The translations under genes and the position numbers were made by a program. Source: Actinopolymorpha sp. NPDC004070 (GTDB taxonomy: Bacteria; Actinomycetota; Actinomycetes; Propionibacteriales; Actinopolymorphaceae). Taken from it: 64,000 bases of DNA. This document shows positions 9,786 through 11,637 of the stretch, in pieces. Numbering within the stretch: the first letter of the stretch is position 1; each line of letters begins with the position of its first letter. The DNA is taken from contig NZ_JBEXMJ010000003.1 of the NCBI RefSeq assembly GCF_040610475.1, forward strand, positions 186,001-250,000. The letters run 5' to 3'. The notes beneath the pieces are model-generated. The model was not told the origin of the DNA. It saw only the letters and a program-made list of their open reading frames with translations, and ran no database searches.

Positions 9786-10811
9786 TCACAACCCGATCGC
9801 CCTCCGGGCGGCGGCGAGTGTCGGCGCGGCGAGTTCCCGGGCGCGTTCGGCGCCCAGGCGCAGGGTCGCGTCGACGTACGCCGGGTCCGCGGCGAGTTCG
9901 GCGTACCTGTTCTGCAGCGGCTCCAGTACGCCCACCACCGCGTCGGCGGTGTCGCGTTTGAGTGCGGCGTAACCGTCGTACTTCCCGGCGAGGGCCGCCG
10001 GGTCCGCCTCGCCGGTGCAGCCCGCCAGGATCTCCAGCAGGTTGGACACGCCGGGCCGGTTCTCGGGGTCGTAGCCGACGTCCGGCGAGGCGTCGGTGAC
10101 CGCGCGGGACACCTTGCGAACGATCACCTCGGGTGGGTCGAGCAGCCGGATGGATCCGAGCGAGTCGGCCGGTGCGTCCTTGCTCATTTTCGAGGTCGGG
10201 TTCTGCAGGTCCATCACCCGCGCCCCCACGGTGGCCGGGCTCATCTCCGGCACGACGAAGGTGCGCCCGTACTCGCGGTTGAACCGGATCGCGAGGTCCC
10301 GGGCGAGCTCCACGTGCTGGCGCTGGTCCTCGCCGACCGGCACCTCCGTACTCCCGTACAGCAGGATGTCCGCGGCCATAAGTACCGGATAGGTGTACAG
10401 CGACACCCGGGTGCGCGGCCGGCCGCGTCCCTTCTCCTTGAACTGGATCATCCGGTTCAGCTCGCCGACGTAGGCCGTCGACTCCAGCAGGTACATGAGT
10501 TCGGTGTGCGCCGGCAGGTCGCTCTGCCGGGTGAGTACGCACACCGCCGGGTCCAGCCCGGCCGCGAGATAGATCGTCGCTGTCTCGCGGGTCAACTGGC
10601 GCAGCCGTCTCGGGTCATGCTCGACGGTGAGCGCGTGCAGGTCCACGACGCAGAAGACACACCGGGCGGTGTGCTGCAGGTCGACGAACCGGCCGAGCGC
10701 GCCGAGATAGTTGCCGAGGGTGAGCCGGCCGGTGGGCTGGATGCCGGAGAAGATCGTGCGGGTGGTGGGCGTGGCGTCCACGGCTGCGTGGTCGGTGGCC
10801 GTGTGGTTCAT
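9786..10811 (-). CDS. trpS: Tryptophanyl-tRNA synthetase
   Basis: This class I synthetase charges tRNA-Trp. The 341-residue protein opens the core with FSGIQPTGRLTLGNYLGAL (HIGH-like TLGN at 31-34) and has the KMSKS-type loop KMSKD at 208-212; GEDQ near 160-163 and the QFKEKGRG segment are typical of TrpRS. I chose ATG 10811, which has GGAG 8 bases upstream. Gln25 and His59 align with residues (Gln9 and His43 of the Geobacillus enzyme) known to matter for indolmycin, and look like the ordinary drug-sensitive residues, but I am not sure. The leader carries a Trp-codon attenuator like that of the auxiliary TrpRS gene of Streptomyces coelicolor. Confidence 0.96.
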   Translation of the reverse strand: MNHTATDHAAVDATPTTRTIFSGIQPTGRLTLGNYLGALGRFVDLQHTARCVFCVVDLHALTVEHDPRRLRQLTRETATIYLAAGLDPAVCVLTRQSDLPAHTELMYLLESTAYVGELNRMIQFKEKGRGRPRTRVSLYTYPVLMAADILLYGSTEVPVGEDQRQHVELARDLAIRFNREYGRTFVVPEMSPATVGARVMDLQNPTSKMSKDAPADSLGSIRLLDPPEVIVRKVSRAVTDASPDVGYDPENRPGVSNLLEILAGCTGEADPAALAGKYDGYAALKRDTADAVVGVLEPLQNRYAELAADPAYVDATLRLGAERARELAAPTLAAARRAIGL

Positions 10812-10865: not shown

Positions 10866-10974
10866 CGGCCGCCCTCGCAGGGGCGGCCGGATGCTGGGTG
10901 CGTCGTACGCGCGATCGGGGGCCGCCCTAGGCGGCCCACCAACCGAGTGGTCGGATAACGATCTGCGTACGCAC
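10866..10974 (-). promoter_or_regulatory. Trp-responsive transcription attenuator before trpS
   Basis: Read on the minus strand the leader holds four segments: 1 GGGCCGCC (10937-10930), 2 GGCGGCCC (10926-10919), 3 CGGCCGCCC (10889-10881) and 4 GGGCGGCCG (10874-10866). Segments 1:2 and 3:4 pair perfectly, and 2 can instead pair with 3. Segment 1 begins at the second of two Trp codons of a leader peptide. A ribosome stalled at those codons would mask segment 1, free 2 to pair with 3 and stop hairpin 3:4 from forming. Hairpin 3:4 has no U-tract, but neither do the other terminators here. Confidence 0.82.
10927..10974 (-). CDS. Trp leader peptide (15 residues, ends WWAA)
   Basis: GTG 10974 to TAG 10927 encodes VRTQIVIRPLGWWAA, with Trp codons at 10941-10939 and 10938-10936. 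The -10 box TATTGT ends 6 bases before the GTG, so the message should be leaderless and start at this codon. The two Trp codons lie at the edge of attenuator segment 1, the position needed for ribosome stalling to change folding. Confidence 0.8.
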   Translation of the reverse strand: MRTQIVIRPLGWWAA

Positions 10975-10980
10975 CCGGCC

Positions 10981-11010
10981 ACAATATCCGCTCGGCCGAT
11001 GCCGTGTCAG
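10981..11010 (-). promoter_or_regulatory. trpS promoter (CTGACA - 18 bp - TATTGT)
   Basis: On the minus strand a -35 box CTGACA (11010-11005) and a -10 box TATTGT (10986-10981) are separated by 18 bp. This is the best sigma-70-type promoter in the window. The start would fall at or beside the GTG of the leader peptide (10974). The promoter overlaps the leader of the divergent GNAT gene. Confidence 0.75.
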
Positions 11011-11019
11011 CAGGAGAGG

Positions 11020-11637
11020 ATGATCCCCGTGGCGAATGTGGAGAATCCGGCGGCCGGGAGTGACGGCGCCGTCAAGCCTGCCTTGACAGGTGCCGAAGCC
11101 GTGGAGGTGGTTGTGGGGGAGCCCGGCGTGGTGGTCCGGCAGGTCGGTCCGGACGACTGGCGGGAGTGGCGGGCGATCCGGCTGGCGGCACTGGAGGACA
11201 CGCCGTGGGCGTTCGGGTCGACGCTCGCGCAGGCGCGGACGTTCGGGGAGGAGGAGTGGCGGCGCCGGCTGGCCGGGTTCCCCTGCTACCTCGCCGATCC
11301 GCCGGACCTGGCGGGCGGCCCGGTCGGGATGAGCGGAGCCTTCGTCGAGCATCCCGCGCCCGGCGCCGACGGGCAGGGCGTCACCGTCGAGTTGGTGTCG
11401 ATGTGGGTCAGCCCGGCGGCTCGGGGACGCGGGGTCGGCGCCCACCTGGTCGCAGCCGTGGTCGAGTGGGCGGCCCGGACAGGCGCCGCTCGGGTGCACC
11501 TGTGGGTGACGGACGGGAACGACCCGGCCCGCCGGTTGTACGAACGCTGCGGCTTCGTGCCCACGGGCGAACGCGCGCCGCTGCCGTCCGACCCGAGCCT
11601 GAGCGAGGTCGGCATGGTGCGCGAACTCTCCGCGTGA
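11020..11637 (+). CDS. GNAT family N-acetyltransferase
   Basis: This 205-residue protein has one GNAT domain from about residue 30. The acetyl-CoA site is visible as VSPAARGRGVGAHLVAAVVEWA (V/I-x-x-x-x-RGxGxG/A pattern, about 132-153), followed by LWVTDGNDPARRLYERCGFVPTGER, the usual last strands. The acceptor is unknown; the family includes enzymes acting on small molecules and on protein N-termini. ATG 11020 follows AGGAGAGG closely; GTG 11029, nine bases later, is a likely alternative start. The gene diverges from the trpS leader. Confidence 0.85.
   Translation: MIPVANVENPAAGSDGAVKPALTGAEAVEVVVGEPGVVVRQVGPDDWREWRAIRLAALEDTPWAFGSTLAQARTFGEEEWRRRLAGFPCYLADPPDLAGGPVGMSGAFVEHPAPGADGQGVTVELVSMWVSPAARGRGVGAHLVAAVVEWAARTGAARVHLWVTDGNDPARRLYERCGFVPTGERAPLPSDPSLSEVGMVRELSA

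Follow-up and report, generated by a model that had tools for sequence, protein, structure and literature searches.

Upstream of a tryptophanyl-tRNA synthetase (TrpRS) gene, trpS, in Actinopolymorpha sp. NPDC004070, the window (the whole stretch of 64,000 nucleotides analysed here) carries a short leader with Trp codons and a set of complementary segments, which raises the question of what kind of switch they form and which TrpRS it serves. With a probability of about 0.85, we read the region as a ribosome-mediated Trp attenuator of a second, auxiliary TrpRS gene and as the counterpart of the attenuator before the auxiliary trpS of Streptomyces. The promoter, the GTG-initiated leader and the four segments that a sequence-only reading had placed before trpS were recovered base for base at the claimed minus-strand places, and the features lie as follows.

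11010-11005, minus strand: -35 hexamer CTGACA, as read, matching TTGACA in five of six bases; the spacer to the -10 hexamer is 18 nt
10986-10981, minus strand: -10 hexamer TATTGT, with 6 nt between its last base and the leader GTG
10974-10927, minus strand: predicted leaderless leader ORF GTG...TAG, VRTQIVIRPLGWWAA, with tandem Trp codons 12-13 and TAG at 10929-10927
10974-10962, minus strand: segment P (leader start codon and first codons), partner of linker segment L, from the swap test
10937-10930, minus strand: segment 1, GGGCCGCC, as read, overlapping the second Trp codon
10926-10919, minus strand: segment 2, GGCGGCCC, as read, adjoining the stop codon and near-invariant in aligned relatives
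10910-10898, minus strand: linker segment L, GCGTACGACGCAC, between segments 2 and 3, partner of P
10889-10881, minus strand: segment 3, CGGCCGCCC, as read, near-invariant in aligned relatives
10874-10866, minus strand: segment 4, GGGCGGCCG, 3' arm of the terminator hairpin 3:4 (-20.4 kcal/mol)
10847-10841, minus strand: segment 5, CCCTCGC, complementary to the terminator loop and the start of segment 4
10824-10819, minus strand: trpS Shine-Dalgarno sequence AAGGAG, as read
9786-10811, minus strand: auxiliary trpS with ATG at 10811, TIGR00233 286 bits, auxiliary clade in the tree

Perfect pairs in the window number eight for 1:2, nine for 3:4 and seven for 2:3 (eight counting the final G of TAG), with GGCCGCC common to segments 1 and 3 and GGCGGCC common to segments 2 and 4. 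The terminator hairpin is followed by no U-run in the window, only two of the eight bases after segment 4 being T. An Rfam scan of the whole window returned no match at gathering score, and a T-box leader was rejected on the same ground, no covariance-model match having reached that score. On the opposite strand, the listed start of a divergent ORF (10891-11637, plus strand), acetyltransferase-like by eye, overlaps the trpS leader region.

The genome of 6.37 Mb, for which the homologue search gave Actinopolymorpha rutila as the nearest named relative (91% across the protein), encodes two TrpRS enzymes, the window's and one at C1:466572 (L001), which score 286.1 and 340.7 bits, respectively, against TIGR00233; the same trpS locus is present among genomes of its own genus. 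Two TrpRS enzymes above the cut-off were found in all eight family genomes searched (this genome included) and in 38 of the 40 genomes behind leader-bearing loci, these representing 40 of the 80 loci from the homologue search. The exceptions are G009, a MAG with one TrpRS, and G034, with one and a fragment of 46 positions; in G016 the second copy is split into two pieces. A quick tree of 121 rows placed 42 labelled leader-bearing genes on one side of a branch with SH-aLRT 100, within a set of 50 rows, and gathered the housekeeping copies, including this organism's second TrpRS, in a separate group. The eight unlabelled rows of the auxiliary set (L081, L121-L127) likewise have leaders: L122, L123 and L125 are copies of L006, L005 and L004, L124, L126 and L127 have tandem Trp codons, L081 has one Trp codon and L121 a displaced stop. 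The window TrpRS is 49% identical to its own housekeeping copy and 63% to a Streptomyces auxiliary enzyme (L008). Leaders that match the S. lividans trpL2 peptide occur in five of 392 Streptomyces genomes, and the TrpRS enzymes behind those five leaders are 79.5-81.3% identical to the same auxiliary enzyme and 50-53% to two housekeeping copies. The auxiliary gene is far from universal, since a match of at least 352 bits to the window protein occurs in only 39 of 61 Streptomyces genomes, the remainder reaching at most 300 bits, and since only 15 of 148 genomes in a class-wide sample (this one included) reach 345 bits.

Conservation of the leader follows the same division. Under a strict rule, which asks for two adjacent Trp codons within the last eight codons and for [TC]ANNNT 6-7 nt upstream of an ATG or GTG start, leaders precede 45 of 50 auxiliary trpS genes in a first set and 39 of 49 in a second, which contains some repeat copies; where one Trp codon suffices, the counts rise to 47/50 and 47/49. 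These counts exclude the masked L212 and one housekeeping locus. The same rule found no leader before 37 housekeeping and 35 other trpS genes and one in 3420 shuffled upstream regions. The leader is thus not a product of chance, one fixed rule having found it before nearly all auxiliary genes and before no housekeeping or other trpS; the Trp codons, whose presence in relatives had been proposed as a check, are conserved across the auxiliary clade. The automatic rules passed over four leaders (L121, L206, L208 and L210); by eye, these appear to be leaderless Trp leaders with their stop codon beyond segment 2, and the classical stop-codon logic may differ in them. In L210 and L121 the stop codon lies far into the linker, and a ribosome would translate through hairpin 1:2. 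A phylum-wide scan for a pattern of two Trp codons, stop and GGCGG with one mismatch allowed matched 35 of 396 genomes, nearly all at one mismatch, and was discarded; its backward control matched many genomes too, and the window itself fails the pattern.

The spacing between promoter and start codon was examined in the 22 leaders with a single possible ATG or GTG, which avoids bias from start-codon choice. The hexamer [TC]ANNNT ends 6 nt (20 leaders) or 7 nt (two leaders) before the start in all 22, and no other spacing up to 25 nt is seen in more than two of them; an SD-like motif within 14 nt upstream of the start was found in none of the 22. Among all 88 leaders, the hexamer stands at 6-7 nt in 86 and an SD-like motif in ten; the hexamer formed part of the score by which held-out leaders were picked, and the set used for spacing is to that extent not free of selection. 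The earlier suggestion that the leader peptide is itself leaderless is supported by this conserved promoter spacing, and the S. lividans counterpart is leaderless by RNA-seq in the excerpts available of PMC8079986. As judged from spacing, leaderlessness is conserved, but it was already known for such leaders. Twelve Streptomyces trpE leaders found by pattern (L232-L243) are likewise leaderless by spacing (12/12), and the housekeeping trpS of the present genome (L001) may itself be so, CACAAT standing by eye seven bases before its ATG.

The observation that the synthetase carries residues that look indolmycin-sensitive proved correct, yet not decisive: the window enzyme has Gln9 and His43 (B. 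stearothermophilus numbering). Gln occupies position 9 in all 38 housekeeping enzymes and in five of 50 auxiliary ones, the others having Lys (25), Thr (18), Val (1) or Ala (1). His43, being present in all 88 enzymes (38 housekeeping and 50 auxiliary), cannot separate the two groups. We take Gln11 of the E. coli enzyme to be the equivalent of position 9. A docking table sets E. coli Gln11 next to indolmycin (part of PMC6450493), resistance is reported for the change of His43 to Asn (excerpt of PMC4899734), and SGR_3809 of S. griseus is given as a resistant second TrpRS (excerpt of PMC6804068). The KMSKS loop is altered in the auxiliary enzymes of the Actinopolymorpha family (the window, L004, L005, L121, L126 and L127), reading KMSKD in the window and KMSGS in A. 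rutila (L004), compared with KMSKS in 38 of 38 housekeeping enzymes; drift or a changed activity are possible readings of these residues.

Automatic screening placed a stable hairpin downstream of the leader in all 49 first-set leaders (-12.0 to -27.5 kcal/mol), although in L023, L049 and L068 the hairpin picked overlaps the expected place. In free minimum-energy folds of 48 leaders (L026, which contains Ns, was omitted), 1:2 formed in 44, 3:4 in 44 and a further helix, P:L, with at least four pairs, in 38. When a stalled ribosome was masked, equilibrium folds contained 3:4 in 47/48, 2:3 in 1/48 and P:L in 33/48. The mask thus does not favour 2:3, which would have to win kinetically, because 3:4 wins at equilibrium despite the mask. 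Segments 1-4 are near-invariant in two alignments, one of 32 leaders chosen from 46 outside Streptomyces (divergent ones were omitted) and one of 42 Streptomyces leaders, and since they hardly vary, 2:3 shows little covariation. Where segment 2 has GGACGG, five of six leaders have the matching GCCGTC in segment 3 (the exception is L044, and the six are related); where it has GGCGG, GCCGTC is found in five of 78 (89 leaders in all, five unclassified). In the relatives the Trp codons are kept, but the segments vary too little to prove 2:3. The reading as a Trp attenuator is supported, but a description in four segments (1:2 with 3:4, or 2:3) is too short, as the P:L helix joins it.

P:L is built from the 5' portion of the leader ORF and a complementary stretch of the linker that separates segments 2 and 3, and it encloses hairpin 1:2. 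In Actinopolymorpha, as in most leaders of Nocardioides and Occultella, the start codon is part of the helix; in Streptomyces the pairing sits shortly after it. The complementarity was assessed by a swap test, in which the duplex energy of P with its own linker is compared with that after linkers have been exchanged among leaders, a procedure that removes base composition and shared conservation. The first set of 49 leaders, reduced to 35 once 13 near-identical leaders and one containing Ns had been removed, gave -10.45 for nt 1-13 against -7.57 when swapped (z -7.3, 0/10000), and the signal weakens as the tested interval slides into the ORF. A held-out set was drawn as 50 of the 65 loci that came from the trpL2-peptide search, the Streptomyces protein search and the class-wide sample, chosen by score and not placed in the tree (L198, the window itself, and the lower-scoring L214-L227 were omitted); four had no leader by the rule and six were duplicates, leaving 40, all but three of Streptomyces type. 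The signal at the interval chosen first, nt 1-13, was not reproduced on these leaders (z -1.4, 766/10000). With nt 1-18, an interval picked after the held-out sequences had been seen and hence no blind test, that set gave z -7.3 (0/10000), with the best value at nt 7-18 (z -8.2) and z -6.8 after dereplication (n=31). Both sets combined (n=67, nt 1-18) gave z -10.8 (0/10000), the control region after the terminator giving z +0.6. Reversing P in the dereplicated held-out set gave -12.8, against -14.2 for the true orientation and a permuted mean of -11.5; that the reversed segment beats the permuted mean points to arms that are partly palindromic. In the window itself the P:L duplex reaches -16.5 kcal/mol, and three of 1000 shuffled linkers and six of the 88 linkers of the leader set did as well.

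Aligned Streptomyces leaders (n=42) locate the helix more closely, as nine pairs between nt 9-17, without the start codon, and the linker. There, 91.3% of cells are paired against 84.5% in shuffles (0/500), double changes occur in seven of nine pairs against 4.2 (1/500), and 41 cells carry double changes against 16.3 +/- 5.8 (0/500), counts that related sequences inflate and that are not to be read as probabilities. Further pair types in these 42 leaders did not exceed the shuffles (66/500). Sliding the register by one column left 3-8% paired, and by two columns 59-68%. On a MAFFT alignment of 32 of the 46 non-Streptomyces leaders the signal is weak (pairing 51/500, covariation 24/500); P is misaligned there in L055, L057, L071 and L066 and divergent leaders are omitted, and the alignment-free swap test is preferred. 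The four leaders with late stop codons belong to neither set, and with linkers chosen by eye, shuffled linkers did as well in 0 (L208), 2 (L121), 12 (L210) and 307 (L206) of 1000 trials; three of the four pair much more strongly with their own linker than with shuffled ones, and L206 is not significant. Taken at the level of sequence comparison, P:L shows covariation. For the 12 Streptomyces trpE leaders, pairing of the 5' end with the downstream stretch was not significant (177/2000); one of them, L232, has ATGTGC at its start and GCACAT downstream, a hint of the same 5'-end helix.

From the anatomy, the leaderless spacing, the conservation in the clade and the P:L covariation seen when sequences are compared, we infer a transcription start, a stalling, a termination and a clamp that would act together in the following way. 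The transcript would begin at or next to the leader GTG, and a ribosome would load on its 5' end without a Shine-Dalgarno sequence. With charged tRNA-Trp, the ribosome would reach the stop codon and cover segments 1 and 2, 3:4 would form and transcription would end; with uncharged tRNA-Trp, it would stall at the Trp codons, 2:3 would form first and trpS would be transcribed. Once the linker has been made, P:L would shut the 5' end to ribosomes, and only a ribosome that had loaded early could decide; transcripts free of ribosomes would fold P:L, 1:2 and 3:4 and terminate.

That P:L acts as a clamp on leader initiation is offered tentatively, at somewhat under an even chance, and the fuller proposal is held with the same reserve: a working helix would close the 5' end once the linker leaves the polymerase, allow one early sensing ribosome per transcript and let untranslated transcripts terminate by default. 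We prefer the clamp because, on a leaderless mRNA, a helix at or just behind the start codon should be in competition with the ribosome that initiates there. P:L could instead belong to an antiterminator pseudoknot in which the 5' end, lying behind the stalled ribosome, would base-pair with the 2:3 loop and stabilise readthrough, an arrangement that we regard as unlikely. It draws on the fact that P:L crosses 2:3, both together making an H-type pseudoknot, on the persistence of P:L under the stalled-ribosome mask (33/48 folds), and on the Nocardioides helix, which at about nt 1-7 should lie upstream of the footprint expected of a ribosome stalled at codon 9; by the footprint sizes generally accepted for ribosomes, however, the Streptomyces helix at nt 9-17 should be partly covered, and the free folds place P:L (38/48) together with 1:2 and 3:4. 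Far less probable still is a reading at the DNA level, in which P and L would be the two arms of a repressor's operator and not RNA partners: some arms are palindromic (CGTACG, GCATGC), but the sequence of an operator should be conserved, whereas here the sequence changes between groups and the complementarity stays.

Control might also be translational, the region before trpS sequestering its Shine-Dalgarno (SD) sequence and the attenuator pairing freeing it, which we consider improbable, more so than the pseudoknot. The missing U-run in the window, the arrangement GGCTCC-GACCAA-GGAGCC around its SD and the adjoining segment 5 all speak for such control. Segment 5 sits between the terminator and the SD, is kept through sequence change in non-Streptomyces relatives and complements the terminator loop in the swap test there (n=45, z -7.7, 0/5000) and, at z -2.6 (28/5000), in Streptomyces (n=43); because the apex of the terminator forms an inverted repeat of its own, a copy and a complement of it look alike. 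Against it, pairing of the upstream arm with the SD was no better than swapped outside Streptomyces (n=33, 1687/5000) and within it (n=34, 3763/5000; before dereplication, an SD and a start could be recognised in 70 of 89 leaders), although this test is weak, because an invariant SD cannot covary. The sequence-only suggestion that attenuation here may act on the main housekeeping TrpRS fails, and we give it hardly any credence. Gln9 and His43 are indeed as in sensitive enzymes, but the second trpS of the genome scores higher and groups with the housekeeping copies of relatives, the window gene lies in the leader-bearing auxiliary clade, and none of the 37 housekeeping copies tested has a Trp leader.

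Attenuation of the S. coelicolor auxiliary trpRS1 was reportedly described by Vecchione and Sello in 2010. The E. coli trp leader possesses a Shine-Dalgarno sequence, unlike the leader in the window. To our knowledge it has no 5'-end helix of the P:L kind. It shares the logic of 1:2, 2:3 and 3:4 proposed for the leader in the window (Rfam RF00513). A Trp attenuator was predicted for S. avermitilis trpS2 in 2005 (excerpt of PMC1262725), and S. lividans trpL2 before trpS is described as leaderless, with two hairpins and no U-rich stretch (excerpt of PMC8079986). To judge from these parts of the two papers, both Trp attenuation before an auxiliary trpS and leaderless leaders are already in print. 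The window resembles the Streptomyces auxiliary trpS attenuator in its TrpRS clade, its short leaderless Trp leader, its GGCGGCC-type hairpins and a weak or absent U-run; a classical intrinsic terminator has a U-run, whereas the window and, in the same excerpt of PMC8079986, the S. lividans counterpart do without. It differs in its tandem Trp codons, S. lividans TrpL2 having one Trp (same excerpt), and in Gln9, a position occupied by Lys or Thr in 43 of 50 auxiliary enzymes. As in the window, the leader ORF of S. meliloti trpL, a leaderless trp attenuator (excerpt of PMC10117765), and that of Streptomyces trpL1, leaderless by RNA-seq in S. lividans (excerpt of PMC8079986), stand at the RNA 5' end and contain Trp codons, but in the same excerpts both control trpE, whereas the window leader precedes a synthetase gene. 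The parts available of the literature on such attenuators, the experimental S. coelicolor trpRS1 papers aside, contained neither a description of a P:L helix nor, for the Streptomyces auxiliary trpS attenuator, any mention of one, and P:L is on this footing apparently an undescribed part of an otherwise known attenuator type.

The comparison carries the Streptomyces-type switch over to Actinopolymorpha, Nocardioides, Occultella and others, in which the leaderless start is retained, and links it to the auxiliary enzyme and not to the housekeeping one. If the clamp is true, it would explain how a leaderless attenuator without Shine-Dalgarno timing keeps ribosome and polymerase in step.
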